This document shows positions 9,637 to 40,481 of a DNA stretch of 64,000 nucleotides, piece after piece; position 1 is the stretch's first letter, and every line of letters starts with the position of its first letter. The notes beneath the pieces are model-generated. The model did no database searches. It was given only the letters and a program-made list of their open reading frames with translations, and had not been told where the DNA came from. The position numbers and the translations under genes were made by a program. The stretch comes from Roseobacter cerasinus (GTDB lineage Bacteria; Pseudomonadota; Alphaproteobacteria; Rhodobacterales; Rhodobacteraceae). The stretch covers positions 620,001-684,000 of the forward strand of contig NZ_BLIV01000001.1 of the NCBI RefSeq assembly GCF_009811755.1. Reading direction: 5' to 3'.

Positions 9637-9654
9637 CCCAAGAAAGGGCTTCCC

Positions 9655-10548: not shown

Positions 10549-10560
10549 GGGGTGCTGGAC

Positions 10561-11694
10561 ATGACAAAACTCAACTGGGGCATGATCGGCGGCGGAGAAG
10601 GCAGCCAGATCGGGCCAGCGCACCGTCTGGGCGCGCAGGCGGATGGCAACTTTGTGCTGGCGGCGGGGGCGCTGGATGTGGATGCGGAGAAAGGCCGCGC
10701 CTATGCGCAGTCGCTGGGGGTCGCGGCGGATCGTGCCTATGCGAACTGGCAGGAAATGTTGGAGGGAGAACGCACGCGCGAAGATCGCGTTGATCTGGTC
10801 ACCGTGGCCACGCCGAACTCCACCCATTTCGAGATCACCAAGGCGTTCCTTGAGGCTGGGTTCAACGTGCTCTGCGAAAAGCCGATGACCATGACCGTGG
10901 AGGAAGGCGAGGAGATTGTGCGCGTGGCCGAGGCCTCGGGCAAGATCTGCGCGGTGAACTACTGCTATTCCGCCTACCCGATGGTGCGGGAGATGCGGCA
11001 GATGGTGAAGACCGGCCAGATCGGCAAGGTGCGCCTCGTGGTCGCCAACTTCAGCCACGGGCACCACGGCGATGCGGGTGACGCGGACAATCCGCGCGTG
11101 CGCTGGCGCTATGATCCGACGATGGCGGGGGTATCTGGGCAGTTCGCCGATTGCGGCATCCATGCGCTGCATATGGCGAGTTTCATCGCGGGTGACGAGG
11201 TGCGCAGCTTGTCTGCCGATTTCGCCTCGACCATACCTTCGCGTACGCTGGAAGACGACGCGATGGTGAACTTCCGCATGGAAGGCGGCACGGTCGGGCG
11301 GCTCTGGACCTCTTCCGTTGCCATCGGGCGGCAGCATGGGTTCGACATTCAGGTTTTTGGCGAGACGGGGGGGATGCGGTGGGCCTCCGAGCAGCCCAAT
11401 CAGGTCTTCTACACGCCTGTCGGTGGGCGTACGCAGATCATGGAGAAAGGTGAGGCTGGACTGTCGGATGAGGCGGCGCGGCTCAGTCGCGTGGCGATTG
11501 CCCACCCCGAAGGCTTCCCACTGGCGGTGGCGAACATTTACGTCGATCTGGCCGCCGCGATCCGGGGAGAGATGCGCGACGCCCTGCCCTCCGCAACGGA
11601 TGGGTTGCGGTCCATGGTGGCGGTCTATGCCGCAGTGGCCTCGGCAAAAGCCGAGGGTGCATGGGTCGATTCACGACCACCGATGTTGCGGTGA
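10561..11694 (+). CDS. Gfo/Idh/MocA family oxidoreductase, IdhA/scyllo-inositol dehydrogenase-like
   Basis: A 377-residue dehydrogenase with N-terminal GMIGGGEGSQIG, a glycine-rich dinucleotide site with the spacing seen in inositol and scyllo-inositol dehydrogenases, and an EKP motif (LCEKPMTM). I chose the ATG at 10561, which has AAGGGG eight bases upstream; a GTG at 10552 would add three residues. It is the third family member in this region and the last gene of the plus-strand iol transcript, 12 bases after iolE. The exact isomer used is not readable from sequence. Confidence 0.85.
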   Translation: MTKLNWGMIGGGEGSQIGPAHRLGAQADGNFVLAAGALDVDAEKGRAYAQSLGVAADRAYANWQEMLEGERTREDRVDLVTVATPNSTHFEITKAFLEAGFNVLCEKPMTMTVEEGEEIVRVAEASGKICAVNYCYSAYPMVREMRQMVKTGQIGKVRLVVANFSHGHHGDAGDADNPRVRWRYDPTMAGVSGQFADCGIHALHMASFIAGDEVRSLSADFASTIPSRTLEDDAMVNFRMEGGTVGRLWTSSVAIGRQHGFDIQVFGETGGMRWASEQPNQVFYTPVGGRTQIMEKGEAGLSDEAARLSRVAIAHPEGFPLAVANIYVDLAAAIRGEMRDALPSATDGLRSMVAVYAAVASAKAEGAWVDSRPPMLR

Positions 11695-11763
11695 TCACGC
11701 CACTTCCTCGGACTGAAGCAGCACCCGCTGCCGTTCTTGTGAAGGTGGTGCTAAACTTCTGCC

Positions 11764-12288
11764 ATGTCCATATTGATCTCTCTTTCAGGCCTTCCCGGGG
11801 TTGGCAAGACGACAGTCGCAAAGGCTCTGGCTGCGCGGACCAAGGCTTTTCACCTGCGCGTCGACTCGGTTGAGGCAGCGTTGAAGAGAAGCGTCCTGAA
11901 CATCCATCCGGCGGAAGATGCTGGCTATCTGGCAATTTCTTCCATTGCAAAAGACAACCTCTTGCTTGGCTTCGATGTAATCGCGGACACGGTCAATCCG
12001 ATTCGAACCACAAGAGAGCTATGGTCGCAGACCGCCACCGCTAGCTCGGCCCAACTTCTGAATGTCGAAGTAGTCTGTTCAAACGAGAAACTACATCGCC
12101 AACGGGTTGAGACACGCAAGAGTGACGTCGAGGGTCTCGTTCTCCCTGACTGGAAGAAGGTCTCCAAGCGCGAGTTTGAACCATGGCAAGTTGACCGCGT
12201 CGTGGTGGATACCGGCACGATGACAATCGATGACTGTGCGGCGACGATTGCGCAGGAGATGAAACCGCTCAGATCCAGGTTTCGATAG
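11764..12288 (+). CDS. P-loop ATPase/kinase-like protein
   Basis: A 174-residue single-domain protein with a Walker A motif GLPGVGKT at 9-16. It resembles small AAA/zeta-toxin- or gluconokinase-like P-loop kinases that phosphorylate small molecules, but I cannot assign a substrate. Its base and codon use is clearly less G+C-rich than the iol genes on its left (AAAGACAACCTC, TCAAACGAG and similar). It borders a degraded stretch, which suggests horizontal arrival. It starts 69 bases after the previous gene and has no visible link to inositol metabolism. Confidence 0.65.
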   Translation: MSILISLSGLPGVGKTTVAKALAARTKAFHLRVDSVEAALKRSVLNIHPAEDAGYLAISSIAKDNLLLGFDVIADTVNPIRTTRELWSQTATASSAQLLNVEVVCSNEKLHRQRVETRKSDVEGLVLPDWKKVSKREFEPWQVDRVVVDTGTMTIDDCAATIAQEMKPLRSRFR

Positions 12289-27450: not shown

Positions 27451-29763
27451 ATGGACCGCCCAAAAAGCAACTGGCTCGCCCTGAAGCTCTTGCTCTGGGT
27501 TCTGGCGCTCAACGCTTTTCTGTCGCTGATTGCGACTTCGGTCCAGCTTTATCTGAACTTTGACCGTCAAAACCGGGCGCTGGAAGACATCACCCAACAG
27601 GTCGAACGAGGCTTCGGGCAGAGCCTGAGCTTCGCCTTGTGGTCCTTTGATCTGCAGCAGGTCGAACAAATCCTCGACGGGGTCCATTCCGGGGCCGACA
27701 TTGCCACCTTGCGCCTGACCTCTGACCAGGGCCGAACGTGGTTTCGCGGTCCGGAGCGCCCTGACGAGGTTTTGCAGGACAGGGTGATCGAGCTGGTCTA
27801 TACCGACCCCGCGCGCGGGCAAGCGGTGGTGGGTGTGCTTGACGTCGGTCTGAGCCGGGCCCGCATCTGGTCTGAACTCTATGCGCAAGTGCTGGTGCTG
27901 TTCTTCGCCAATCTGGCCAAAACAGGCTTCGCCTCGGTTGCAATACTCCTTGTCTTCCGAAGCCTGGTGAGCCGCCATCTGCGGCAGATCTCGTCATATG
28001 TTTCTCAGCCCTACTGGCTCACCGAAGAGGACAACCTGACGCTGGAGCGCTCTGAAAGCACCCGCGACGATGACCTTGAGGCGATCGTTTCCGCGATCAA
28101 TACAACCCGGGATCGATTTGAGGATTTAGACCGGGAGCGGGCGACAGCATCCCAGCAGCTGCGACTGGTGCTTGATACCACGATGAACGGCATCATCGGC
28201 CTCGATCACAGCGGTGTCGTGAATGTCATCAACCCGGCGGCCCGCCACATGCTTGGTGGCAAATCCGAGAGCACGCCGTTTCCGTGGCCCGAAGCAATCA
28301 AATTCCTCGATATCGCGGATTTACATCCACTGGACGCCTCTGCCGATCCGATCAATCGTGCCCTGGCAGGTCAGTCCTTGCACGGCGAGACACATCTGAT
28401 GACCCGCGCGGGAGAAAGCGAAAACCGTTATGTCAGGGTCAGCAGCACGGTGGTCGAGGACGAGTTGAGTGATCTGCGCTGTGTGATCGTGCTCGACGAT
28501 GTCTCGCAGTTGGAAAAAAACCGCCAACAGATCGAACGGCGCGGACGGCTGGATGCCCTGGGTCAACTCACCGGCGGCATCGCGCATGACTTCAACAATT
28601 TGCTGGCAACGATCCTTTATGCCATGCAGTTGACAAGGGCCGACAACATTTCCCCCAGATCCGACCGGGTCCTTGCGACAGCGCTGAGCGCGGTTGGTCG
28701 GGGCCGGGAGCTGACCGGTCGGCTTCTCGCCTTTGCCAAACGGCAGCCAGGGCTTGCCAAATCGCGCAATGCGTCTGAGATTTTCGGGGAATTTGAAGCG
28801 CTGGTTCGGCCCGCGATCGAGGCAAATGTCGAGCTGTCCTTTGTGCCGCCTGATCCCGATGTTCTGATCTACTGCGATCAGGGGCAGCTGGACAATGCGC
28901 TGCTCAATCTGGTCCTGAACAGCCGCGACGCCATCATGCGCAGCAGCAAGGGCAGCGCCATCATCGTCAAGGCGCGTGGGCTTGATGAATTGGACGCGGA
29001 CCTCATCCTGCGGCGGGAAAACTTACATGCCTACATCACACAAGGCATGAAGCAGGAACACGCGCAGGACGTGGCCCGCCATGATGAAAAGGCCTACCGC
29101 TACGTGGAAATCTCGGTCACCGACGACGGCCCGGGCATGTCAGAGGAGATCAAAAGCCGCGCCATTGACCCCTTCTTCACCACCAAGGACAGCAACTCCG
29201 GGTCCGGCCTCGGGTTGTCGATGGTCTACGGCTTTATCCAGCAGTCAGACGGCGAATTCCGGATTTATTCAGAACTGGGTTTTGGCACCACCATCCGCAT
29301 GATTCTGCCACGCGGCAGCCCCGACAATGAACGCGAAGAGCCGGTTCCACGCCTTCCGGCGCGGCGTGGCACTGGCCAATATGTGCTTGTCGTCGAAGAT
29401 GAGGAAAACCTGATCGCTGTCATGGAAGATCTGATCGAAGAACTGGGGTTCCGCTTCCGTGCGGCACGCTCCGGTCAGGACGCGCTCGATGTTCTCGGCA
29501 GTGGAGTGCCCGTGGACGTGATGCTGACCGATATCGTCATGCCCGGGGGCATCGGCGGCTTTGAACTGGCAAGCAAGGTTCGCAAGTTGCGACCGGATCT
29601 GCCCATCATCTACATGTCGGGCTATACCGGCTTCACCTCTACTGAAATGGGTGACGTGGTTGCGCCCATGCTGCAAAAACCCTGCCCACCCGTGGAATTG
29701 GCCGAAGCGCTCTATGGCGCTCTGGAGCCGAAGGAGAAGGGGGCTAAGGACGCAGAGAGTTGA
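27451..29763 (+). CDS. Hybrid sensor histidine kinase
   Basis: A 770-residue kinase. A membrane helix lies at about 10-32 and a periplasmic region to about 145, followed by a second helix near 149-172. A PAS-like domain begins near 225 (LVLDTTMNGIIGLDHSG). The phosphoacceptor is H379, in GGIAHDFNNLL. The ATPase domain has an N-box (LLNLVLNSRDAI), G1 (DDGPGMSEE) and G2 (GSGLGLSMV) boxes. A C-terminal receiver has D694 in MLTDIVMPGG. The H-D-F-N-N-L form is typical of HWE/NtrB-like hybrid kinases in alphaproteobacteria. It sits between the binding-protein gene and a stand-alone receiver, so signal probably passes binding protein, kinase, receiver. Confidence 0.92.
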   Translation: MDRPKSNWLALKLLLWVLALNAFLSLIATSVQLYLNFDRQNRALEDITQQVERGFGQSLSFALWSFDLQQVEQILDGVHSGADIATLRLTSDQGRTWFRGPERPDEVLQDRVIELVYTDPARGQAVVGVLDVGLSRARIWSELYAQVLVLFFANLAKTGFASVAILLVFRSLVSRHLRQISSYVSQPYWLTEEDNLTLERSESTRDDDLEAIVSAINTTRDRFEDLDRERATASQQLRLVLDTTMNGIIGLDHSGVVNVINPAARHMLGGKSESTPFPWPEAIKFLDIADLHPLDASADPINRALAGQSLHGETHLMTRAGESENRYVRVSSTVVEDELSDLRCVIVLDDVSQLEKNRQQIERRGRLDALGQLTGGIAHDFNNLLATILYAMQLTRADNISPRSDRVLATALSAVGRGRELTGRLLAFAKRQPGLAKSRNASEIFGEFEALVRPAIEANVELSFVPPDPDVLIYCDQGQLDNALLNLVLNSRDAIMRSSKGSAIIVKARGLDELDADLILRRENLHAYITQGMKQEHAQDVARHDEKAYRYVEISVTDDGPGMSEEIKSRAIDPFFTTKDSNSGSGLGLSMVYGFIQQSDGEFRIYSELGFGTTIRMILPRGSPDNEREEPVPRLPARRGTGQYVLVVEDEENLIAVMEDLIEELGFRFRAARSGQDALDVLGSGVPVDVMLTDIVMPGGIGGFELASKVRKLRPDLPIIYMSGYTGFTSTEMGDVVAPMLQKPCPPVELAEALYGALEPKEKGAKDAES

Positions 29764-29859
29764 CGGCTCACCTCTGTACCCTCTAAGCAAGCATACAGCG
29801 TATGAGGATCAGTAAAGACCTGGGGCGAGGCACAACGTAGAAACATGGTGGATTGAAGC

Positions 29860-30279
29860 GTGGCAAAGTTACTGCTGATGGAAGACGATGCGCACTTTGC
29901 GTCTGTGCTGACCGAAGTGTTGCTGGAACAGGGGCATTCGGTGCAGTCCTGCGCATCCGCAACCGAAGCCTTCTCACTGATCTCCGAGAACCGCTTTGAC
30001 CTTCTGATCACCGACATCATCGTGCGCCAGGATAACAGGTCTGTGCCGGATGGTGGCATCTCTCTGATCTCAAGGCTCCGTGGCGCGCTCAGTTGGAACC
30101 TTGAGCCCTGGATGAAGGAAATGCCGATCATCGCGATATCGGGCGCCATTCATAACCAAGGCATGTCCGATCTGCTCAAGATCACGCGGGATCTGGGCGC
30201 GGATATGACCTTGAGCAAGCCGACCGATACCAAGGATCTGCTGGACGCCATCAATCTCTTGCTGCGCAAGTCAAAATAG
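29860..30279 (+). CDS. Single-domain response regulator
   Basis: A 139-residue CheY-like receiver with no output domain. The acidic pocket is E8/D9/D10, the phosphoacceptor is D52 (LLITDII), and the switch Ser and Lys are in IIAISGA and LSKPTD. A GTG start is used at 29860. It follows the hybrid kinase by 96 bases and is probably its downstream or phosphorelay partner. It must act by protein contact, as it has no DNA-binding part. Confidence 0.88.
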   Translation: MAKLLLMEDDAHFASVLTEVLLEQGHSVQSCASATEAFSLISENRFDLLITDIIVRQDNRSVPDGGISLISRLRGALSWNLEPWMKEMPIIAISGAIHNQGMSDLLKITRDLGADMTLSKPTDTKDLLDAINLLLRKSK

Positions 30280-30627
30280 GGTGGCGTCATCAACCGCCAC
30301 CGCAGTTCTCGGCAGCGCCGGGCACCCAATCGTCGCTTTTATCAATTGATGGACCCCAAACGGCCTTCGCTCCCAAACCGGTGAGGGGGATCCGGGCCAA
30401 TGAGGTGCTTTGCACCGATCAGCGTGCAAGTACGGTTTTTCCGCAAATTGCGCATGCTCGCCAGGTTTGCACCAGATGCCACCCCTGCGCAAAAGCAGCA
30501 TAACTCGCTGTAAAATATTCATATTTTTGCGCGGCAGCCGAACGCCTGAACCATCAAAACCATCAGGCTTCGCAGAATCTTAAATTTCTGTTAACCTTAC
30601 GTCATCATGTGAGCGGAGGAGGTGGAG
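30280..30627. other. Gap before the ten-gene operon, probable promoter region
   Basis: No gene supported in 348 bases. The last third is AT-rich (TCTTAAATTTCTGTTAACCTTACG around 30578-30601), unlike the flanking coding sequence, and is the likely promoter of the operon starting at 30628. I could not pick a -35/-10 pair with confidence. Confidence 0.45.
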
Positions 30628-31062
30628 ATGGGCGTAGATGTCCCTGACGACTATGAGATAGACCTCAACCTCAGTGGCGGCACCACAATAGACGGTGACC
30701 TGTCAATGGACACCGACCTGCGCATCCGCGAATTGCCGACCATAGAGTTGCGCGTGCGCGAGCTTCCGGAAGTCAAAATTGGTGTCACGGAACTGCCCAA
30801 AGTGCAACTCGGCGTTGACCCCATCGATTTCTCACTGCGGATCAAGGAAATTCCGGCGATCCGGGCGCATCTGCCTGCGAATTTCAAGGTTGGGTTGTCG
30901 CTCCTCGGGAATGAGCTCCTGGCCATCAACCTCTGCGGCGAAGCGCAGGTGATCACCGAGGACTATGTCCCCAACCCCTGCGAGATCTGCGGCCCGCCGG
31001 GCAATGCGCGCGAGATCGCTGGCAATGTCAGCCGGATCGAGCTGATCGAAGACGATGGCTGA
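30628..31062 (+). CDS. Uncharacterised protein with decapeptide repeats
   Basis: A 144-residue protein, first in a ten-gene operon, with GGAGGAGG just before its ATG. Residues 31-80 form a ten-residue repeat: LRIRELPTIE, LRVRELPEVK, IGVTELPKVQ, then a diverged unit and LRIKEIPAIR. Alternating hydrophobic positions suggest stacked beta strands. A CxxC pair (PCEICG) lies near the C terminus. I know no matching family. It has no signal peptide, so it is probably cytoplasmic. A structural or scaffold role is a guess. Confidence 0.72.
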   Translation: MGVDVPDDYEIDLNLSGGTTIDGDLSMDTDLRIRELPTIELRVRELPEVKIGVTELPKVQLGVDPIDFSLRIKEIPAIRAHLPANFKVGLSLLGNELLAINLCGEAQVITEDYVPNPCEICGPPGNAREIAGNVSRIELIEDDG

Positions 31063-31765
31063 GCTGAAAGAGAGCATCACCCTGCGCAGGGGCCGCGCGA
31101 TGGCACCGTTTGAGGTGGCCGAGCCGCAGGCGGGTGTCCTCAAGCTGGGCGGCGCTTTGAAGACAGCGATGGGGGCGGAGCTGCGCGCACGGCTGATCCC
31201 GCGCAAAGGTCTGACGCGCATAGCGGCGCGCATCGACAAAACGGCACCTCCGGGGCGGCACACGGCCACACTGGTGACCGAGGACGGCGAATACCCCGTC
31301 ACCGTGGACGTTCCAGTGCGCGAAAAGCTACGCATCTCACCAGGGTCAATCAGCATCACCGGGCGACCAGGCACGCGGGTCACAGCGCAATTCACCCTCT
31401 CGAACCGGGGCAACGTGGCCTTGCCTGTCCCAAACGGGGGCGTGGGCGGGCTCTTTGCCTCTGACGGGGTGGCGGGCGCGTTTTCGGCGGCCTATGCCTC
31501 GGATGCCGAGGCGCCCCTGGAGGTCTTTGGCGAATTCATTCAAGGCCTGCGCCGGTCCTATCTGGGGCTTATGCGGTTGAAGTTCACGTCAAAGGACAAG
31601 GGCAATCTGTCACCGGGCCAGAGCCGCGCGCTGTCGGGCGAGTTTGCCATACCGGCACCGTTGAATGACGCCACGCAGTTGGGTGCGGGCCGCAAGTTCC
31701 ACACCACCATCGCCATGCCACATCTGCGCCTTGTGGCCCGTCTGACCCTGAGCGCTCCGAAATAG
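31055..31765 (+). CDS. Uncharacterised protein with two beta-sandwich (NEW3/Ig-like) domains
   Basis: A 236-residue protein overlapping the previous gene by 8 bases. Two stretches have the pattern of immunoglobulin-like or NEW3 beta sandwiches: about 40-95 (PPGRHTATLVTEDGEYPVTV) and about 97-225 (ISPGSISITGRPGTRVTAQF, SNRGNVALPVPNG). No signal peptide or catalytic motif is visible. The family is unknown to me. Its beta domains resemble those of three later proteins in the operon. Confidence 0.7.
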   Translation: MAELKESITLRRGRAMAPFEVAEPQAGVLKLGGALKTAMGAELRARLIPRKGLTRIAARIDKTAPPGRHTATLVTEDGEYPVTVDVPVREKLRISPGSISITGRPGTRVTAQFTLSNRGNVALPVPNGGVGGLFASDGVAGAFSAAYASDAEAPLEVFGEFIQGLRRSYLGLMRLKFTSKDKGNLSPGQSRALSGEFAIPAPLNDATQLGAGRKFHTTIAMPHLRLVARLTLSAPK

Positions 31766-31779
31766 AAAGGGGACCGCCC

Positions 31780-32409
31780 ATGACAAAGAGTAAGATGACC
31801 ATGCGAGACGTACGCCAGAGTATGGACAGTATGTCGGACATGATGGTCCGCCAGATGGACCTGACCGGCGAGTTGGTCGACAGCCTGGCAGGCACGGCGC
31901 AACGGTTTCTCTCCACGCTCTCGGCGGGGCAGTCCTCGAACTGCTGCGACATCCCAGAGCCGTGCTGGATGCCGAAAGATCTGGGCGAGGTGCATTGCCA
32001 GCTCTGCGCGGGCAGCACCGGGATTGTCGAGATCCGCATCACCAACACCGATTTCCGCCCGCGCAATTTCACGCTGGCGGCGGCTGGGCCCGATGCCGGG
32101 CGGGTCAAGCTGACGCCAAACAGTTTTGCGCTGGGACCGAAGGAGCGGCGCACGGTGCGCGCGCAGTTTGACACCAAACTCGATGACGGGGTGCATTGCG
32201 CGGAATTCGAAGCGCTGATCTGGGTGGTGGGCTGCAACAGTCATTACCTGCGCTGGACCATTGAGGTCGGCAAGACCGAGCGCGCCTGCTGTCATCACGT
32301 GGAGGTCTTCGACCAGCCGGATTATGAGCATCATTGGTATGATCATTTCTATTGCGTGCGGCCCTGTTACGGCCGCTCGGTGCGCCCGGGCAGCGGGATC
32401 AAAGGGTGA
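31780..32409 (+). CDS. Uncharacterised Cys/His-rich protein with helical N terminus
   Basis: A 209-residue protein. Residues 1-48 form a Met-rich amphipathic helix. Eleven cysteines follow (55, 56, 62, 73, 76, 140, 152, 170, 171, 192, 196), with CQLC at 73-76 and a His-rich tail (CCHHVEVF, HHWYDHFYC). Residues about 80-165 look like an Ig-like beta sandwich (GIVEIRITNTDFRPRNFTL). Metal binding or disulfide crosslinking is possible. AAAGGGG precedes the ATG. Family unknown. Confidence 0.7.
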   Translation: MTKSKMTMRDVRQSMDSMSDMMVRQMDLTGELVDSLAGTAQRFLSTLSAGQSSNCCDIPEPCWMPKDLGEVHCQLCAGSTGIVEIRITNTDFRPRNFTLAAAGPDAGRVKLTPNSFALGPKERRTVRAQFDTKLDDGVHCAEFEALIWVVGCNSHYLRWTIEVGKTERACCHHVEVFDQPDYEHHWYDHFYCVRPCYGRSVRPGSGIKG

Positions 32410-32412
32410 TCC

Positions 32413-32922
32413 ATGTCGAACTCACAGATGAAAGACCTTTTCAGCCAGGCCATGCGCCTGAACATGAAGTATTATTCCGGATTATTTGACGTCACGAAGG
32501 ATTACCTGGGCGCGCTGCGGACGCTGGCGGAGCAAGGGCTCGAGACCGATGTGGCGCGGCCTGTTCCGCCGACGGCGCCACCGGCGGTGCCCGCGATCCA
32601 GCCCCTGATCCTTGCCGCCCCAGCGGGCAAGGAGGCAGCGGCCAGCTTTGCGGTCACGAACAACACCGGGCAGGAGGTGGCGGCGGACCCTGAGGTCTCG
32701 GAGAACCTGAGGGCAGCGGGCGTCGTGGCCGAACCGGCGGGCCGGATGGTCGCGCATGGGGAAGACGTGGTCTTCACGCTGAAGGGCAAGCCGACGTCGA
32801 AGATGAAACTCGATGAGGACATCCATGGCACGGTCAGCGTGCGCCCCTTCGGGGATCGTGAGATTCCGGTGGTGCTGCGCCGCTTGCGCGCGCCCGCCAA
32901 AGCGAAGGCAAAGACCGCGTGA
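32413..32922 (+). CDS. Uncharacterised protein: helix, beta domain, Lys/Ala tail
   Basis: A 169-residue protein. The N-terminal helix (about 3-45, MKDLFSQAMRLNMKYYSG, LFDVTKDYLGALRTLAEQ) resembles the amphipathic helices of phasins. A Pro/Ala linker leads to a beta-type domain (about 70-155), and the chain ends in APAKAKAKTA. The same plan recurs in the protein at 34834-35421. It starts 3 bases after its upstream neighbour and overlaps the methyltransferase by 4. Family unknown. Confidence 0.7.
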   Translation: MSNSQMKDLFSQAMRLNMKYYSGLFDVTKDYLGALRTLAEQGLETDVARPVPPTAPPAVPAIQPLILAAPAGKEAAASFAVTNNTGQEVAADPEVSENLRAAGVVAEPAGRMVAHGEDVVFTLKGKPTSKMKLDEDIHGTVSVRPFGDREIPVVLRRLRAPAKAKAKTA

Positions 32923-33758
32923 GCGCGCCGGGTGGCATCATGGCCGAAGGCGTGCTGGTGCAGGCGATGCACCTCTATTCCGCGCTGGTGATGAAGCCCT
33001 ATGAACAGGGCCGCAATGCGGGACTGATCGAGCGCACGACGCTGGGCACCCTGCCCCAACCGCTCGATCGGAATGGCCTCGGCCCGCATTTCTCCAAGAA
33101 ATACCCCAAGCCGGTGCTTTTGGGGCGCGCAACCGAGAATGACGCGCTGGTCTCCGAGTTTGACCGCATGGGCGAGATTTACGACGCCTATGTGCGCCCT
33201 TTCTCGACGCCGATCATGAATGCCGCCGTGGAGGAGCTGTCGGCCTGGATCAAGCCGGATTTCCGGCTGCTGGACGCGGGCTGTGGCGCGGGGCGCGAGC
33301 TCTGTCGCCTATCGCAGATGGTGCCAGATGGTGAAGCGGTCGGCATTGATCTGGCGGCGGGGATGGTCAATGCCGCCTATGCCTCGGCCCGTGCAAAAGC
33401 CTTTGATCATACAGCGTTCTTTCAATCTGACGTGGGCGATTTGCCCGAGGTCTTCACCGGGCAGTTCGATCTGGTCTATTCCTGTCTGGCGCATCACCAC
33501 TACCCCGACCCGCCCGCTGCCACGCGCGAGATCTTCCGTGCCCTGCGCCCGGGCGGCTACTACACGGTGATCGACGCGGGCCCCGAATGGTTCGTGAAAC
33601 GCTCCTCCGGGCTCGCGCTCTGGGCCGATCCGGGCTGGATCGGATTTCACACGCCCGAGCAATTTATGGCGCTCTTCGAGGCGGCGGGGTTCGAGACCAC
33701 CGGCTGGATCGACCTTGTGCCCGGTTTCGGCATCGCCTGCGCGCAGAAGCCCCTTTGA
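32919..33758 (+). CDS. SAM-dependent class I methyltransferase
   Basis: A 279-residue protein with the SAM-binding motif I LLDAGCGAGRELC, then an acidic GIDLAAGMV motif II and a YSCLAHHHYPDP motif. A GTG start at 32919 gives a 4-base overlap with the previous gene; an ATG at 32940 would be seven residues shorter. It overlaps the prenyl synthase start by 4 bases as TTGA. Methyl acceptor unknown; an isoprenoid lipid is suggested by the neighbour. Confidence 0.87.
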   Translation: MSAPGGIMAEGVLVQAMHLYSALVMKPYEQGRNAGLIERTTLGTLPQPLDRNGLGPHFSKKYPKPVLLGRATENDALVSEFDRMGEIYDAYVRPFSTPIMNAAVEELSAWIKPDFRLLDAGCGAGRELCRLSQMVPDGEAVGIDLAAGMVNAAYASARAKAFDHTAFFQSDVGDLPEVFTGQFDLVYSCLAHHHYPDPPAATREIFRALRPGGYYTVIDAGPEWFVKRSSGLALWADPGWIGFHTPEQFMALFEAAGFETTGWIDLVPGFGIACAQKPL

Positions 33759-34822
33759 CCACGCCGGACTACGACCGGGCCCTCATCGAGCAGGCCCTCA
33801 AAACCGCAAGGACCCGGACCGAAAAGGCAATGACCCGGTTTTTTGATGCTCGGCGCGAAACGGGGATGGATGTGCTCTACGATCAGATCAGCGATTATCC
33901 GTTTCGCGTTGGCAAAGGCCTGCGGCCCGCGCTGGTCTATGCCGCCTGCCAGGGCATGGGCGGCACCGAAGCACAGGCCGAAAACACCGCGACGGCCATC
34001 GAGCTCTTCCACAATGGCGCGCTGGTGCATGACGATATCGAGGATATCTCCGATTTCCGGCGCGGGGATGAGACGCTCTTTCGCCGCCACGGGGTCCCCA
34101 TTGCGATCAACACCGGCGATGCGACCTTCGTGTTTTGCCTCTCGCTGCTGCTCGACAATGTCGAACAGCTCGGCGTGCGCAAGGCGATGCGCATCCTCAA
34201 GGATTTCGAACGGCTAAGCCGAGAATCCGTCGAAGGGCAGGCCATTGAACTCGACTGGATCCACAACGCACGCTTCGATCTCGATAGTGAAGACTACCTG
34301 CGCATGGCCTACAAAAAAACCTGCTGGTACACGATGATCGCGCCCTTGCGGCTGGGTGTCGTGGCCGGGTCCGGCCCGTCGATGGTGGCCGATCTCGAAG
34401 ACGCGCTGATCGAAGTGATGGAACTGGGCTATCTCGCGGGCATCGGCTTTCAGGTGCAGGATGACCTGCTGAACCTGACTGCCGACGAAGTGCTCTATGG
34501 CAAAGAGATCAGCGGGGATCTCTACGAAGGCAAGCGCACCATCATGCTGCTGCATTTCCTGCGCACGGCCCCCAAGCGCCAGCGCACCCGGGCGATCAAG
34601 CTGCTGACCCAGCCACGCGCGGAGAAGGAGCCCGACGAGGTGCGCTGGCTGCTGCAGGCCATGCACGAAGCAGGCTCCATCGACCACGGGCGCGAGCTGG
34701 CGCAGGATTTCATCACCCGGGCTTTGACATTCGAAGCGGAGGGGCTGCGCTTCATGGCAGAGACCCGCCACCGCCAATTCCTGCGCGAAGTGCTGAAATA
34801 CGTGATTGCAAGACTTAAGTAA
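33755..34822 (+). CDS. Polyprenyl synthetase family protein (trans-isoprenyl diphosphate synthase type)
   Basis: A 355-residue all-helical class I isoprenoid enzyme. The first Asp-rich motif is DDIED at 93-97 (context LVHDDIEDISDFRRGDE). The second is DDLLN at 236-240, with the last Asp replaced by Asn. GQAIELDW and KKTCWYT blocks fit the family. A TTG at 33755 overlapping the methyltransferase stop is the best start; the open frame runs back into that gene. It is longer than bacterial FPP/GGPP synthases (about 290-300). It could make a C15-C20+ diphosphate, or be a related class I terpene enzyme. Confidence 0.85.
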   Translation: MTTPDYDRALIEQALKTARTRTEKAMTRFFDARRETGMDVLYDQISDYPFRVGKGLRPALVYAACQGMGGTEAQAENTATAIELFHNGALVHDDIEDISDFRRGDETLFRRHGVPIAINTGDATFVFCLSLLLDNVEQLGVRKAMRILKDFERLSRESVEGQAIELDWIHNARFDLDSEDYLRMAYKKTCWYTMIAPLRLGVVAGSGPSMVADLEDALIEVMELGYLAGIGFQVQDDLLNLTADEVLYGKEISGDLYEGKRTIMLLHFLRTAPKRQRTRAIKLLTQPRAEKEPDEVRWLLQAMHEAGSIDHGRELAQDFITRALTFEAEGLRFMAETRHRQFLREVLKYVIARLK

Positions 34823-34833
34823 GAGGGACCGAC

Positions 34834-35421
34834 ATGCCACATGACCACGACCACGGGAGCACGCCTTCGAGCCCGTTTGAGGAGCTGATGAAACTGCAAA
34901 GCGCATTTCAGCAGAGCCTGAGCCAGGCGACGATGCAGTATCTGCGGCAGCTGCAGGGTATCGTTGGGCCGGTCACCCCCGGCACCGTGGTGCAGCAGGT
35001 GGAGGGGACAGGCGTCACGCTCAAACTGCGCCCGGGCGGACAGGCGAAGGCATTGGTGAACGTGGAGAACCGCCAGCGCGTGCACTCCATGGTGACGCCG
35101 ATGATCACGCCGCTGGTCTCGGACACCGGGGCCACGTGGTTCGCGCAAACGGCATTCACACCGCCCACAGCGCTGCTGGCGACGGATGAGGTGTTGGACT
35201 TCGCGCTGGTGCTGGAGGCGCCGAAGGATATGCCCGTGGGGGTCTATCGCGGGGCGGTGCTGATCTATGGCTGCAGCGACGGGGTGGTGCCGCTGGAGGT
35301 GACCGTGGCGAAACAGGCGGCGAAGCGCAAAGCCGCCCCGGCTGCTGCCAAAGCCAAGACAGCGGCAAAGAAAGCACCTGCGAGGAAGCCCGCTGCCCGC
35401 AAACCCACCAAAGCGTCCTGA
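34834..35421 (+). CDS. Uncharacterised protein: helix, beta domain, long Lys/Ala/Pro tail
   Basis: A 195-residue protein. A His-rich start (MPHDHDHG), an amphipathic helix at about 13-45, a beta-sandwich-like domain at about 58-155 and a highly basic tail at 158-195 (KAAPAAAKAKTAAKKAPARK). Such tails occur in PhaF-type phasins and histone H1-like proteins and can bind DNA or other polyanions. The plan matches 32413-32922. Eleven bases separate it from the prenyl synthase. No known family recognised. Confidence 0.7.
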   Translation: MPHDHDHGSTPSSPFEELMKLQSAFQQSLSQATMQYLRQLQGIVGPVTPGTVVQQVEGTGVTLKLRPGGQAKALVNVENRQRVHSMVTPMITPLVSDTGATWFAQTAFTPPTALLATDEVLDFALVLEAPKDMPVGVYRGAVLIYGCSDGVVPLEVTVAKQAAKRKAAPAAAKAKTAAKKAPARKPAARKPTKAS

Positions 35422-35426
35422 GGAGT

Positions 35427-35996
35427 ATGACCATGGCCAACAGCGCACACATTCGCCTCATTGACCCGCCCGAGGACGCGGGGCGCACCACGGCGAGCCT
35501 GTTTTCCTCGCTCGCCAGCAGGCTCATCGCACTACACTATACGTCCGGTGTCAGCGTCATCGGCTCCACCCTCGCGGGGCTCGCCGAGGCGGGCCGCGAG
35601 ATTTCGAAGACTGCGGAGGGCGCGCGTATCCGCCGAGCGCTGGAGGCAAGCGCGGTCAAGGACAACGGCGAGCTTTTGTGGAGCGCCCTTCGGGTGACCG
35701 GCTGGACCGAAGGCATGCCAGCCGCCCCTGTGCTCGACCACATCCGAAACGACCTCGCCTTGCTGCTCGCCGATGATCTGGCCGAGACGATTGATAACGT
35801 GCCCGCGCCGCTGGAGAACAAGGTGCATCGCAGCAAGACGGTGCCGCCAGCGATCACCTTCATCGACACGCTGATGGGCCTGTGGATCCATTCACGCGAG
35901 ATCGTGCAATCGGTTGAGGCGCTGGCCCGTAGCGCACCTGAGCGGGACGACATCGAGCCCGGGGACGCGGTGCACAGCGGCCCGATCCTGCGGTGA
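35427..35996 (+). CDS. Uncharacterised helical protein of the operon
   Basis: A 189-residue, mostly helical soluble protein with no signal peptide, membrane segment or catalytic motif I can see. The N-terminal half (SLFSSLASRLIALHYTSGVS) is amphipathic. It overlaps the CrtC-like gene by 4 bases (GTGA). Function unknown. Confidence 0.65.
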   Translation: MTMANSAHIRLIDPPEDAGRTTASLFSSLASRLIALHYTSGVSVIGSTLAGLAEAGREISKTAEGARIRRALEASAVKDNGELLWSALRVTGWTEGMPAAPVLDHIRNDLALLLADDLAETIDNVPAPLENKVHRSKTVPPAITFIDTLMGLWIHSREIVQSVEALARSAPERDDIEPGDAVHSGPILR

Positions 35997-36991
35997 CAGC
36001 CTTCGATGTGCTCCGGCCGCCGGTTCTGAGCGATCCCACGGCGGCGGCCTACAAGGACTGGTTTCACCTCAACGTGTTCCTGCCCGACTCGGGGCGCGTT
36101 GTGCTGATCAACCTGTCGATGCATGGGCCGCCCTGGGACCAGCGGGCTCGGGCAGTCGGCGTGGCGCTGGCGAGCGCGCCGGATGGCGATTGGATTGGCG
36201 GGATCGAGATTGCGTCGTTCGCCGAGAGCAAAGTGGACACGCAGGCGCTGTTTCTCAGCACCGTTTCGATGGCTGTGACCAGAGATGGCACGGCGCTGCA
36301 CGCCAAAGTCGCCCGCCCTGAAGACGGGTTCGAGGCGGACCTGATCGCCCGTCCCGTTCTGTCGGCGGGCGCGCTGGACCTCACGGCGCAGTTCGGCAGT
36401 GGCTGGATCGGCTGGAGCGCGGTGCCAGTGCTGTCTGTCTCCGGTACTCTCAAACTCGATGGAGAGGACATCTCGTTGGAAAACGCGCGCGGCTATCACG
36501 ACCATAACTGGGGGCGTTGGTTCTGGGGTGAGGATGTGGCCTGGGAATGGGGCGCCTGGGTTCTGAGTGAGGATATCACCGTGGTGGCCGCACGGGGCAC
36601 CGACAAGGCCCATTTCAACCGGCAACCGCCGCATGTCTTTCTGGTTTACCGCAGCAAAGTCTACGGGTTCCTGCCAGGGCAGGTTAGATTGAGCTTTGAT
36701 ACGGCTCCAACCCGCGCGAACCGGCGCCTGCCCGGCGCGCTGGCCGCAATCCACCCAGACCGCCGCGCGCCGGATCTGCCAAGGAGAGTGACCTTGCAGG
36801 CGGTCAGTCGGCACGCGCAATTCGAACTGGTCTTCGAGCCGGAGACTGTCGCGCAGCTGCTGCTCTCCGACCCGATGCGCCCCGGATCCGGCTTCATCAA
36901 CGAGTTGGCCGGACGCTGCCGTCTCGTGGCGACGCTGGACCAGACCTTGCTGCGCGCCGAAGGCTCGGGCGTGTTCGAATATGTCGAATGA
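35993..36991 (+). CDS. CrtC/AttH-like protein (carotenoid hydratase-type lipocalin fold)
   Basis: A 332-residue protein. The block GYHDHNWGRWFWGEDVAWEW is the hallmark of the AttH/CrtC superfamily, which includes carotenoid 1,2-hydratase (hydroxyneurosporene synthase) and lipid-pathway proteins. The GTG at 35993 gives a 4-base overlap. With a prenyl synthase and a methyltransferase in the same operon, hydration or binding of an isoprenoid is a plausible role. No phytoene synthase or desaturase gene is in the window, so a classical carotenoid pathway is not shown. Confidence 0.78.
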   Translation: MTAFDVLRPPVLSDPTAAAYKDWFHLNVFLPDSGRVVLINLSMHGPPWDQRARAVGVALASAPDGDWIGGIEIASFAESKVDTQALFLSTVSMAVTRDGTALHAKVARPEDGFEADLIARPVLSAGALDLTAQFGSGWIGWSAVPVLSVSGTLKLDGEDISLENARGYHDHNWGRWFWGEDVAWEWGAWVLSEDITVVAARGTDKAHFNRQPPHVFLVYRSKVYGFLPGQVRLSFDTAPTRANRRLPGALAAIHPDRRAPDLPRRVTLQAVSRHAQFELVFEPETVAQLLLSDPMRPGSGFINELAGRCRLVATLDQTLLRAEGSGVFEYVE

Positions 36992-37502
36992 GCCTCGGCA
37001 TCTGCGCGACTGGATCGTCGCGCTTTATGCGGCTTTGGACGAAGCCGAACCGCAGCGGGCCGAGGCCATTCGAAAGCTCGCGGGAGATGAGATCTCACGC
37101 ATGGCGCTGGACAAAGACCGGATCACCCTTCGCTTTGTCGATGGGGCGTTGATCGTGCGGCGGATGCGGGCAAGCACCGCGCAGCTGAAAAGCCCGCACG
37201 GGGCAACCGATCGGCACACGGTGACGGCACTGCTGCGAGGGTACATGGAGATATCGGAAGCAATTTCGAACGACCATATTCGACTGCATGGCACGGCGGA
37301 TCAAGTCATGGCCATCTGCGCGATCATCGAGATCCTGGTTGACGCCAGCACACGTATCCCCGCACTGCAACGACTGGCCGAAGCCTTTCTGGCCACCACA
37401 GATGCGGGTGACATCCGAGGTGCCCGCAAAAACCGCTCGAACCACCGCGAGCGGATCGCGCAGAAAGAGAACAGCCTTCTGCGGCGCCATGGCCTGCTCT
37501 GA
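36981..37502 (+). CDS. Uncharacterised protein, last gene of the ten-gene operon
   Basis: A 173-residue protein overlapping the CrtC-like gene by 11 bases. The middle (RITLRFVDGALIVRRM, HGTADQVMAICAIIEILVD) has an alternating strand/helix pattern loosely like sterol-carrier (SCP2-type) domains, but the match is too weak to name. The basic C terminus (GARKNRSNHRERIAQKEN) is probably helical. Function unknown. Confidence 0.65.
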   Translation: MSNEPRHLRDWIVALYAALDEAEPQRAEAIRKLAGDEISRMALDKDRITLRFVDGALIVRRMRASTAQLKSPHGATDRHTVTALLRGYMEISEAISNDHIRLHGTADQVMAICAIIEILVDASTRIPALQRLAEAFLATTDAGDIRGARKNRSNHRERIAQKENSLLRRHGLL

Positions 37503-37696
37503 CCGCCGTAGGTGCGCCGGGTTCGGATGCCTGGCGATGACCAAAGGGTGAAATCTTGACGTGATCCGCTGAGAAACCGGTATTGTGACCTTTGGGGTCG
37601 ACTTGATCACGATGCCGGCCCGTGTTCAGAACAATCCAAACCGGCCCAGCGACACCAAAACGCGGCCACCCAACGCCAGCGACCGAGGCAGTGAGC

Positions 37697-38626
37697 ATGA
37701 GCAAAATCGACAGAAATTCCACCCATGACGCTGAAGAGGACGCGCGCAACGACAACATCGTGATCTACGTCAACGGTGATCTGGTGCCAAAGTCGCAGGC
37801 GGTTGTGTCGGTCTACGACTCAGGCTTCATGCTGGGCGACGGGATGTGGGAGGGGCTGCGTTTGCACAACGGCAGATGGGCGTTTTTCGACGACCATATG
37901 GATCGGCTGTTCAACGCGCTGAAGTCCGTCTCCATCGACATCGGCATCGGCATCGGGCCGAGGGATGTGCTCGACATCCTGAACCGCACGGCCGAGGCCA
38001 ACGGTATGACAGACGACGCCCACTGCCGTCTGATGGTCACGCGCGGACGGAAGGCAAAACCCTTCCAGCATCCGGATCTGTCGCGCTTTGGCCCCACCAT
38101 CGTCGCGATTGTCGAACATTCCAGGCCTGCGTCTGGCCTACAGGCCAAGGGTATCCGGCTGGCCACTGTGCCCCAGGTCCGTGGATTGCCCATGTCTCAG
38201 GATGCGAAATACAACTCCCACTCCAAGCTCAATTGCGTCATCGCCTGTCTGCAGGCCGAACAGGCGGGCGCCGATGAAGGGCTGATGCTTGACCCCCATG
38301 GATTCGTGAACACCACCAATGCCTGCAATTTCTTCATCGTGCGGCGCGGTGAGGTTTGGACCTCGACTGGCGACTACTGCATGAACGGGGTGACTCGGCA
38401 GAAGGTGATCGACCTCTGCCGCGCCCATGACATCCCAGTGTTTGAGAAGAACTATTCGCTCTATGAAGCTTACGGCGCGGATGAAGCCTTCCTGACCGGG
38501 ACCTTTGGTGCGCAGACGCCCGTGGCGGAGATTGACGGTAAGCGCATCGGGACCGGTGACAGGCCTATGACGACGCGGATCCGCGCGCTATATACGGACC
38601 TCGTGCGCGAGAACACAAGCGGCTGA
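37697..38626 (+). CDS. Class IV aminotransferase (D-amino acid/branched-chain type)
   Basis: A 309-residue PLP enzyme of fold type IV. The N-terminal IYVNGDLVP and SVYDSGFMLGDGMWEGLR blocks and the lysine in AKYNSHSKLN, which forms the PLP aldimine, are visible. VNTTNACNFFIV is the fold IV cofactor-binding block. The ATG at 37697 was chosen; an in-frame start at 37622 adds 25 non-family residues. It could be a D-amino acid or branched-chain aminotransferase. It follows the ten-gene operon by 194 bases, and a functional link is unproven. Confidence 0.85.
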   Translation: MSKIDRNSTHDAEEDARNDNIVIYVNGDLVPKSQAVVSVYDSGFMLGDGMWEGLRLHNGRWAFFDDHMDRLFNALKSVSIDIGIGIGPRDVLDILNRTAEANGMTDDAHCRLMVTRGRKAKPFQHPDLSRFGPTIVAIVEHSRPASGLQAKGIRLATVPQVRGLPMSQDAKYNSHSKLNCVIACLQAEQAGADEGLMLDPHGFVNTTNACNFFIVRRGEVWTSTGDYCMNGVTRQKVIDLCRAHDIPVFEKNYSLYEAYGADEAFLTGTFGAQTPVAEIDGKRIGTGDRPMTTRIRALYTDLVRENTSG

Positions 38627-38660
38627 ACAGGCTGCAAGTGCATGCAGTCCCGCGCGCCCG

Positions 38661-39548
38661 TCACGACAACCTGGCGAGGAAACGCTCGATCACCGCGTCG
38701 GTATCCCGGCTGGCGTGCCAATAGGCAAAAACGCGAACAGGGTCGTGGCCAAAGGGAAACGGGTGGATCTGCACCGGCCACCGTCGGGAAATCTGGTGCG
38801 CTGCACGTTCGGGTAAGGTCGCGATCATCTCTGTGCCACACAGAACATAGGGCACCAGCGAATAGGACCAGACGGTGATCTGCCGCTTCCGGATCAGGCC
38901 TTCGCGCCTCAGAACCTCTTCGTCGTCGTGAGTCATCTGGTGTTGAATGTATTTCACGACCACATGTCGGCGCTCCAGAAACGCCTGCCGGGTCAACTGC
39001 CCTTGCGGCGGCCCCCGCTCTGCACAGGAAAGACAGACAAACCCTTCCGAGAACAGCTCAGCCTTGGGCGGCATGCCCACATCAAGCGACTGCCCGGCGA
39101 GCAGCAGATCAACCTCGCCGTTTCGCAGCAACTTCCCCGAATCCTCCGAGAGCGGCAGCAGATCAAACCGCAGCCCGGGCACCTCGCGGGTGGAGGCGAT
39201 GATGCCCGGCCCGACACAGGTTTGCAGGACAAACTCAGACGCAACAATCGTCACCTCCCGATCAATGGTCTCGCTGTCCGCGTAAGGCCGAAGTGCGGCG
39301 AAGGACTGCGCCTGCGACAACAGTTCGTTCATCGGGGCGATCAGGCTGCGCGCAAAGGGGGTCAGCACCATGCCCCGCCCGGATCGCACCAGCAGCGCAT
39401 CATCGAAATGCAAGCGTAGCTGCGACAGCACAGCGCTCATCGCCGATTGGCTGAGATGCGCGCGCTTGGCCGCGCGGGTCACATTACCCTCGGCAAGCAG
39501 CGCTTCAAGGCCGATCAGTTGATTGAGGTTGAAACCGGACAGACGCAT
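38661..39548 (-). CDS. LysR-family regulator
   Basis: A 295-residue regulator with N-terminal winged helix-turn-helix (GNVTRAAKRAHLSQSAMSAVLSQLR) and a periplasmic-binding-like effector domain. The NodD/PnbR-like start (NLNQLIGLEALLAEG) is typical of a LysR subgroup. It is divergent from the phytanoyl-CoA dioxygenase-like gene and probably regulates it. AT-rich sequence lies between the two starts. Confidence 0.88.
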   Translation of the reverse strand: MRLSGFNLNQLIGLEALLAEGNVTRAAKRAHLSQSAMSAVLSQLRLHFDDALLVRSGRGMVLTPFARSLIAPMNELLSQAQSFAALRPYADSETIDREVTIVASEFVLQTCVGPGIIASTREVPGLRFDLLPLSEDSGKLLRNGEVDLLLAGQSLDVGMPPKAELFSEGFVCLSCAERGPPQGQLTRQAFLERRHVVVKYIQHQMTHDDEEVLRREGLIRKRQITVWSYSLVPYVLCGTEMIATLPERAAHQISRRWPVQIHPFPFGHDPVRVFAYWHASRDTDAVIERFLARLS

Positions 39549-39653
39549 GTATCATCCAAAAAAATGATGTTGCTTTATCTTATAAATCAATTTTTGAGAT
39601 TTCCCTAGCCATGCAATATTATCCCCGCGACCACTGACACAGGAGCCGCCGCC

Positions 39654-40481
39654 GTGAACATCGCCTCCAAAGTATCCGCTTCTCCGGGCAGCATTGCTGA
39701 CGCCTATACGCGGGATGGCTTTGCGCTGCCGCTCGATATCCTGAGCGCGGCAGAGGCACAAAGCCTGCGCGACGATCTGGAGCGTGCGGAAGCAAACCTT
39801 GCAGATGATACCGAGCGACTGGCGCTGTTGCGCACCTACCCGGACCGACTGCTGCCCGGCTTTGACAGTCTGATCCGACATCCGGCGATCATCGAGGCCG
39901 TGTCTTCGGTGCTTGGGCCCGATCTGCTGGTCTATAGCGGTGCGCTGTTCATCAAACCGGCGCAGTCCGACAAGATCGTCTCCTGGCATCAGGATCTGAC
40001 CTATTGGGGGCTGGACGACGCAGAGGAGGTTACCTGCTGGGTCGCCCTCTCTCCGGCAAACCGGGACAGCGGCTGCATGCGGTTTGTCCCCGGCAGCCAC
40101 AAGCAACGCATCGTTGAGCATGTGGACACCTACGCCGAAGACAACCTGCTCTCGCGCGGGCAAGAGATTGCCGTTGAAGTGGATGAGGCCGACGCGGTGC
40201 TCTGCGAGTTGACCCCTGGGCAGGCCTCCATGCATCACGGCCATCTGTTCCACGCCTCAGGGCCCAACACCACCGACGACCGCCGCATCGGCGTGGCGAT
40301 CCGCTATATCCGCCCGTCGATGAAGCAGAGCTCCGGTGATCGCCCGCTTGTCGCCATCGTCAGCGGCGTGGATCGGTTCAAGAATTTCGACATCGCGGCC
40401 AGCCCGCAGGGGCGTCTTCTGGAGCGGGATTTCGAGATCTGCCGCGCTGAGGCGGAGCTGCGACGGAAGCTGTTCTTGTAG
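39654..40481 (+). CDS. Phytanoyl-CoA dioxygenase (PhyH) family protein
   Basis: A 275-residue Fe(II)/2-oxoglutarate-type oxygenase. The facial triad is visible as WHQD (H and D) and MHHGHLFHASGPN (distal H). A GTG start at 39654 follows GGAG. It is divergent from the LysR gene and convergent with the oxidoreductase at 40488 (6-base gap). The family hydroxylates many substrates, including phytanoyl-CoA, small metabolites and halogenated compounds, so the substrate cannot be named. Confidence 0.85.
   Translation: MNIASKVSASPGSIADAYTRDGFALPLDILSAAEAQSLRDDLERAEANLADDTERLALLRTYPDRLLPGFDSLIRHPAIIEAVSSVLGPDLLVYSGALFIKPAQSDKIVSWHQDLTYWGLDDAEEVTCWVALSPANRDSGCMRFVPGSHKQRIVEHVDTYAEDNLLSRGQEIAVEVDEADAVLCELTPGQASMHHGHLFHASGPNTTDDRRIGVAIRYIRPSMKQSSGDRPLVAIVSGVDRFKNFDIAASPQGRLLERDFEICRAEAELRRKLFL

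Follow-up and report, generated by a model that had tools for sequence, protein, structure and literature searches.

The window analysed here, a 64,000-nucleotide stretch of the Roseobacter cerasinus genome (contig NZ_BLIV01000001.1, positions 620,001 to 684,000), contains a ten-gene operon, g1 to g10, that is a conserved unit found complete in genomes of two phyla. With somewhat less than even confidence, we read this operon as a horizontally spread, self-contained isoprenoid cassette by which a prenyl lipid would be made, modified, carried and kept by a coat or scaffold. In the proposed route, g6 would make a prenyl diphosphate whose chain probably exceeds C20, and g9, as a CrtC-type enzyme, would act on an isoprene double bond in that chain, by adding water across it or by elimination. 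A methylation within the route would fall to g5, and the greasy intermediate or product would be held by the SCP2-like g10. Finally, g4 and g7, perhaps joined by g1-g3, would assemble in the cytosol into a dedicated coat or scaffold holding the lipid product in a bound particle or small inclusion. At locus L016, from an actinobacterial relative, the flanking wax-ester synthases could esterify the alcohol. The isoprenoid-chemistry half of this reading is reasonably well supported; the coat or inclusion half is plausible and draws on sub-threshold resemblances and on the one genome whose set is flanked by genes for wax-ester synthase/diacylglycerol acyltransferase (WS/DGAT).

Operon architecture

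The ten genes are co-directional plus-strand open reading frames (ORFs) at 30622/30628-37502, and an alignment of relatives places the conserved ATG of g1 at 30628. Over the 6.9 kb of the cassette the successive junctions from g1 to g10 measure -8, +14, +3, -4, -4, +11, +5, -4 and -11 bases, bearing out an initial annotation of the same DNA, which had described ten plus-strand genes with gaps of 14 bases or less and overlaps of 4 to 11 bases. All ten are maintained genes, since the ratio of nonsynonymous to synonymous differences (pN/pS) between the window and the Ruegeria copy (L012) is 0.07-0.39 for every one of them. None of the ten proteins has a transmembrane-like stretch (the highest 19-residue Kyte-Doolittle mean is 1.57), so the system is probably cytosolic.

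Among the ten proteins only g5 and g6 match Pfam above the cut-off. Together with g9, which is recognised by its CrtC/AttH-type fold and matches Pfam only below threshold, they make up the three recognisable enzymes that had been anticipated. The remaining seven (g1-g4, g7, g8 and g10) have no Pfam family above the cut-off, and their earlier placement outside known families also agrees with NCBIfam, where g7 and g8 match far below the cut-off (g7 at best at 0.00033, through its Lys/Ala tail; g8 at 0.023) and the other five (g1-g4 and g10) have zero matches. The sole PHROGs match at E<=0.1 among these seven is that of g7 to a DNA-binding family (0.055). A phage origin was accordingly set aside, as the PHROGs search, run on eight proteins, gave this one weak match and hence no support.

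Table 1. Features of the ten-gene operon in the window.
Feature	Position	Strand	Basis and remarks
Conserved upstream element CTTCGCAGAATCTTAAATTTCTGTTAACCTTACGTCA	30568..30604	+	Probable promoter/operator; conserved just 5′ of g1
g1, 144 aa, no family	30628..31062	+	ELPxI strand-like repeats, then strongly conserved HLPANFKVGLSLLG..LCGEAQVITE.Y.PNPCE core
g2, 236 aa, no family	31055..31765	+	Beta-rich by sequence reading; fast evolving, 63% to Ruegeria
g3, 209 aa	31780..32409	+	N-terminal helix (by eye) and Ig-like region with conserved Cys
g4, 169 aa, g7 paralogue	32413..32922	+	N-terminal helix, beta domain (by eye), Lys/Ala tail
g5, class I S-adenosylmethionine (SAM) methyltransferase, 279 aa	32919..33758	+	Pfam PF13847, 1.3e-20
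g6, trans-polyprenyl diphosphate synthase, 355 aa	33755..34822	+	PF00348, 1e-50; both Asp-rich motifs
g7, 195 aa, g4 paralogue	34834..35421	+	Weak phasin-like helix, beta domain (by eye), Lys/Ala tail
g8, no family, 189 aa	35427..35996	+	Helical in low-confidence model; 93% to Ruegeria
g9, CrtC/AttH/kievitone-hydratase-fold protein, 332 aa	35993..36991	+	AlphaFold model and Foldseek
g10, SCP2-like lipid-carrier candidate, 173 aa	36981..37502	+	Profile and weak Pfam SCP2 matches

Conservation and distribution of the cassette

A contig scan with g9 returned nine loci: six from the Roseobacter group and one each from a Lysobacterales metagenome-assembled genome (MAG; L014), a Bacteroidetes MAG (L015) and a Geodermatophilaceae MAG (L016). 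When genomes met twice are counted once (e.g. G012 = L011, G007 = L013), the g9 homologues come from 18 separate loci (the window, L008-L016, L034-L037, L040, L041, L044 and L046), and in 17 of these a polyprenyl diphosphate synthase (PPS) lies in the same cluster. All ten genes are present in nine of the 18 (the window, L008-L013, L014 and L034), which belong to seven Roseobacter-group genomes, the Lysobacterales MAG and one actinobacterium. The initial annotation had made its proposal depend, beforehand, on the unknown genes co-occurring with the prenyl synthase in other genomes; they do so across both genomes and phyla.

The arrangement of the complete sets suggests that the cassette consists of two sub-modules, g1-g5 and g6-g10, because these halves are rearranged in two of the loci: they stand tail to tail in L014 and follow each other on a single strand in the order g6-g10 then g1-g5 in L034. 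Sequence identities of the two halves are correlated (Spearman 0.96 over 36 pairs of nine genomes, and 0.89 over 21 pairs when restricted to the Roseobacter group, the pairs in both cases not being independent).

Partial sets are found at the other loci. L016 has g6-g10 plus opposite-strand ORFs resembling g1 (4.8e-6), g4 (1.5e-6 with the g7 profile), and g2 and g3 (both by eye, g3 at 26%), while a search of its 11-kb contig for a methyltransferase found none; L015 has g6-g10 only. Five actinobacterial loci (L035, L036, L037, L040 and L041) combine PPS and g9 with a weakly matching g8 (2.9e-6 to 1.1e-3), and three of them (L035, L037 and L040) also have a weak g10-like ORF. The g10 profile contained the sequences of L035, L037, L040 and L046, so that their g10 matches are circular. 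In L046 a g9-like ORF accompanies a prenyl synthase split across two ORFs, which we put down to a frameshift or an assembly error, and the g8-like and g10-like parts were assigned by eye only. This locus (8624-11820), from another genus of the same family, has a divergent CrtC-like ORF followed by an SCP2-like stretch (by eye) that shares an ORF with the prenyl synthase. In L044 g9 is fused to an FAD oxidoreductase, with no PPS within 18 kb.

The cassette is rare and patchy, as shown by low match counts in genome surveys (E 1e-10, scoring the best few candidates per genome, so that faint relatives can be missed). With self-hits counted, the g9 profile matched 2/398 genomes in the phylum of the window, 7/396 in that of the L016 genome, 1/395 in that of the L015 genome and 2/295 in the family of the window, where 294 genera were sampled. 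The g3 survey matched 6 of 59 relatives, all within the genus of the window (6/19 there), and 1 of 295 genomes of the family, namely the window itself.

Upstream element and flanking sequence

Directly 5′ of g1 a stretch of 30-37 bases is kept in six distinct Roseobacter-group loci (the window, L008 and L010-L013, which form the alignment; L009 was left out), and sequence farther 5′ cannot be aligned among them. In 6 of 7 genomes a pattern for this element, searched with at most 3 mismatches, has exactly one occurrence, which lies 5′ of the operon; G459 (= L009) has no match, and a reversed control gave 0 matches. Since the pattern was built from these same six loci, its presence there is by construction, and what the search adds is that it occurs only once in each genome. 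The element is a probable promoter or operator. A sigma-70 scan of the region upstream of the operon found no promoter, and terminator-like matches in the region are no commoner than in shuffles.

Nine genes that flank the operon in the window were looked for next to the six further Roseobacter-group copies, and none was found in the corresponding place, a comparison in which L008 offers only 302 bases upstream. Because the ten genes keep their own upstream element once per genome (6/7) while the flanking genes differ, the set looks like a cassette. The GC content of the operon (63.6%) is close to that of the window (61.8%) and by itself gives no signal of transfer. Evidence of an integration site is also lacking, since the window holds no tRNA and Rfam has no match at 28000-40000. 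A plasmid search by tblastn with g9, g3 and g7 gave no match, and IMG/VR scans with g1 and g9 found no relative.

Just 5′ of the operon, at 27451-30279 of the window, lie a CHASE5 histidine kinase with a receiver domain and a stand-alone response regulator. This kinase and regulator, and an aminotransferase downstream, were rejected as partners since they have no counterpart in place at the other Roseobacter-group loci; the one aminotransferase match in L012 is 5 kb off and on the opposite strand.

Isoprenoid enzymes

The family assignment of g6 is secure, with 172.7 bits to PF00348 (cut-off 27), Asp-rich motifs VHDDIED and QDDLLNL that align to solved synthases, and the Thermus geranylgeranyl diphosphate (GGPP) synthase 1wmw as best PDB match (5.5e-54). 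Its best NCBIfam models, IdsA and f2_encap_cargo4, score below cut-off. In prenyl synthases the residue five positions before the first Asp-rich motif governs product length. It is Gly in g6, W/Y/F in the aligned GGPP synthases and Ala in octaprenyl synthase, and by this rule the product of g6 is probably longer than C20.

Modification of the chain would fall to g9. Its AlphaFold model (pLDDT 89.4, pTM 0.90) has a two-domain lipocalin-like beta fold, for which Foldseek found 2ich (1.4e-12), 7a0q (6.8e-11) and 9g4c (1.1e-9). The 24 best PDB matches comprise AttH, kievitone hydratase, 25-phosphosteroid lyase, the pericyclases CghA, Fsa2 and Phm7 and their relatives, which we take to form one superfamily; after these the match probability is below 0.7. 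The known repertoire of the fold is hydration, elimination and cyclisation. Pfam gives g9 sub-threshold matches only (Tocopherol_cycl, 0.006; DUF2804, 0.04) and none to PF07143 at E<=1. An hhalign comparison with the PF07143 proteins of the genus, using 11 of the 13 g9 sequences (L035 and the L044 fusion dropped), was not significant (E 0.28, probability 0.2). These PF07143 proteins were considered as CrtC and rejected, as they lie beside a putative FtsX-like permease and look AttH-type, and for that reason they provide no test of CrtC catalytic residues.

The catalytic Asp of R. gelatinosus CrtC is D268 (PMC4717167). In g9, D170 is invariant (10/10) and aligns with an Asp in both 2ich (AttH) and 7a0q (kievitone hydratase); it was equated with D268 by motif, the alignment holding no authentic CrtC. 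The residue two before it, Y168 (compare CrtC Y266), is also invariant (10/10), and 2ich and 7a0q carry Trp there. CrtC is reported to hydrate more than 20 terpenes of C12-C20 (PMC12402844), and kievitone hydratase to add water to a prenyl double bond (PMC5805349). Because two characterised members of the fold do so (PMC4717167, PMC5805349, PMC12402844), hydration of a terminal isoprene was chosen for g9, which would by this analogy act as a CrtC-type enzyme.

Carrier and coat candidates

The last gene, g10, seems to encode a lipid carrier and not a structural protein. When its profile was run against 453 proteins, the first match outside its own family was the SCP2 protein of the same genome (11.5 bits, E 0.0055; the next match reached 4.1 bits), one SCP2 sequence being tried; a PDB profile search with g10 gave nothing meaningful. 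For g8, ten members gave nothing in Pfam, and the AlphaFold model built from ten sequences is helical and unusable (pLDDT 43.6).

The coat candidates are g1-g4 and g7. By hhalign g4 and g7 are clear paralogues (probability 98, E 5.8e-14), and the Lys/Ala tails ascribed to two proteins are visible in these two sequences. Similarity of g3 to g7 is weak (E 0.006, probability 6), and no significant hhalign similarity links g3 to g4 or g2. Relatives of g3 have a sub-threshold match to the Ig-like FixG_C family in six of nine members. It had been proposed that several of these proteins share an amphipathic N-terminal helix followed by a beta sandwich; this is borne out in part, kinship being clear for g4 and g7 and faint for g3, and the amphipathicity of the helices marginal.

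Hints of a lipid setting come from the SCP2-like g10, from sub-threshold Phasin_2 matches in four of six g7 members and from the two WS/DGAT genes of L016, which bracket its set at 829-2301 and 9662-11005 (PF03007, 1.2e-46 and 7.6e-44). The first part of the initial proposal, that the enzymes make or modify an isoprenoid lipid, is borne out by the prenyl synthase and by the CrtC/kievitone-hydratase fold of g9; the second, that the small proteins coat, scaffold or tether it, stays conjectural, with g10 looking like a carrier instead.

Several observations weigh against the cassette as we read it. The His of the CrtC His-x-Trp motif (H239/W241) is not evident in g9, where W141 is invariant and residue 139 is Ile in 10/10 members; by this mapping, which follows spacing only, g9 may lack the CrtC catalytic His. 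Its carrier candidate g10 scores below the Pfam cut-off for PF02036/PF13530 (best E 0.15 in two of seven members; SCP2_2 in one of seven at 0.02). Compared with shuffled sequences, the N-terminal helices have a hydrophobic moment that is raised marginally at best (p 0.04 for g7, 0.07 for g3, 0.11 for g8 and 0.16 for g4). The match of g7 to PF09361 (Phasin_2) reaches 16.0 bits against a cut-off of 24.9, and the phasin of the same genome, which lies elsewhere beside what we read as a putative polyhydroxyalkanoate (PHA) synthase, does not rank in the top 30 of 453 proteins with either the g7 or the g4 profile. A phasin identity for g4 and g7 was rejected on this last result. WS/DGAT genes occur in one of 15 loci examined, with none in the other 14. 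Within the stretches examined, g1-g4 are not seen in eight of the 18 loci (L015, L035, L036, L037, L040, L041, L044 and L046) and g7 is likewise unseen in seven of those eight; the supposed coat is thus not universal, and the coat or inclusion reading is weakened.

Alternative explanations

The same absence of g1-g4 from eight loci would fit a soluble specialised-metabolite pathway. Here g6, g9 and g5, together with accessory redox enzymes, would produce a small isoprenoid that is secreted or resides in a membrane, the small proteins would serve as substrate carriers and a multi-enzyme scaffold, and no lipid inclusion would form. We regard this as a real possibility, though one we are inclined to doubt. 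It would account for the pairing of PPS and g9 with an FAD oxidoreductase in the five distant actinobacterial loci, for the g9-type domain fused to an FAD oxidoreductase with HpnE/CrtD-like matches in G395, for the Rieske oxygenase beside L014 and the ferritin-like/amine-oxidase/Rieske fusion near L015, and for an SCP2-like carrier such as g10; patchy occurrence within the genus also fits a specialised metabolite. Several conserved non-enzymatic small proteins would be unusual for a plain pathway, however, no transporter or regulator is recognised among the ten, and the paralogues with basic tails look structural.

Large fusions occur at L015 and L044. In the Bacteroidetes MAG a 1080-aa ferritin-like/flavin amine oxidase/Rieske fusion (L015:2143-5385) lies 2.4 kb from g6-g10. 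At L044:6250-9009 a 919-aa fusion of an FAD amine oxidase/desaturase-like part and a CrtC-like domain stands beside a 1864-aa ORF resembling the large AAA-type regulator of the five distant actinobacterial loci.

A bolder form of the coated-lipid cassette, which we consider unlikely, is a new isoprenoid organelle: g6, g9 and g5 would build up a particle from a long-chain prenyl lipid, hydrated and possibly esterified, and this particle would be loaded by the SCP2-like protein and bounded by an Ig-like/phasin-like coat of g1-g4 and g7, with an encapsulin-like shell and an FAD desaturase-like enzyme instead in the actinobacterial version.

The actinobacterial clusters (L035-L037, L040 and L041) comprise a ~1430-aa AAA-type regulator, an encapsulin-like candidate, the prenyl synthase, a weak g8-like protein, a CrtC-like protein, an SCP2-like protein (three loci), a ~750-aa FAD oxidoreductase and a Pro-rich protein, the last bearing YLQ/YLE helices and present in all five. 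These clusters possibly represent an encapsulated isoprenoid pathway. If so, an encapsulin-like shell would enclose the prenyl synthase there and g1-g4 and g7 would form the shell in the Roseobacter-type cassette, a protein-bounded nanocompartment that we judge quite improbable. The conserved ~255-aa protein before PPS has a profile collinear with an encapsulin (Maritimacin), at E 0.4, which is not significant and is bettered by unrelated Rab11 chains (0.06). Among NCBIfam models, the one that the L036 PPS matches best is that of an encapsulin-cargo prenyl transferase (2.4e-56, 191 bits, cut-off 450), and encapsulin-associated prenyl transferases are known (PMC8346489). The encapsulin identity of the shell candidate was rejected on the insignificant alignment and the lack of a Pfam encapsulin match in five members. 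The ten window proteins have no encapsulin family match in Pfam or NCBIfam either, and g1-g4 and g7 resemble, if anything, Ig-like or phasin-like proteins.

Very improbable is an accessory PHA-granule or cell-envelope system, with g4 and g7 coating PHA granules and the isoprenoid enzymes incidental: weak Phasin_2 matches and the phasin beside a putative PHA synthase speak for it, but that locus and the cassette are on different contigs, the genome's own phasin is not recovered by the g4 and g7 profiles, and PPS, g9 and the small proteins are kept together from one phylum to another.

Comparison with known systems

Several parts of the operon resemble a known family in some respects and depart from it in others. 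Like the trans-prenyl diphosphate synthases (1wmw, IdsA and encapsulin cargo prenyl transferases), g6 has PF00348 and both Asp-rich motifs, but it carries Gly for the aromatic residue and no encapsulin gene is recognised in its cassette. With AttH, kievitone hydratase and 25-phosphosteroid lyase, g9 shares the two-domain beta fold (Foldseek probability 1.00, TM by query 0.57-0.64, rmsd 6.1-6.7), and it has the conserved Asp before WG of the CrtC/AttH superfamily and a gene next to that of a prenyl synthase. It differs from superfamily members in its 12-16% identity, in scoring below Pfam cut-offs, and in a locus without carotenoid or ABC-transporter context. Outside its own family, the profile of g10 scores highest with the SCP2 protein of the same genome, whereas g10 itself is sub-threshold for this lipid-carrier domain in Pfam and carries an extra C-terminal tail. 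With phasins, g7 has in common a weakly matching N-terminal helix and a Lys/Ala-rich tail; in contrast to them it falls below the cut-off, has an extra beta domain, is unlinked to PHA synthase, and its profile misses the phasin of its own genome.

Family 2B encapsulin-prenyl transferase systems likewise have a prenyl synthase with proteins that may package it, but no such shell protein is recognised in the cassette, and the other nine genes go unmentioned in the accessible part of the paper describing them (PMC8346489). Among the matches listed in the open-access literature, a scope that leaves out most subscription papers and all bioRxiv preprints, we found no description of the ten-gene set. 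PHA, triacylglycerol and wax esters are known contents of coated bacterial inclusions, and to our knowledge an isoprenoid inclusion with its own coat genes would be new. If the coat reading is true, the cassette would be an isoprenoid counterpart of these coated storage inclusions, with dedicated coat genes. Even without an inclusion, it is a compact, transferable isoprenoid gene set in marine bacteria whose group includes laboratory strains, with a putative hydratase-fold enzyme and seven proteins claimed by no curated family.

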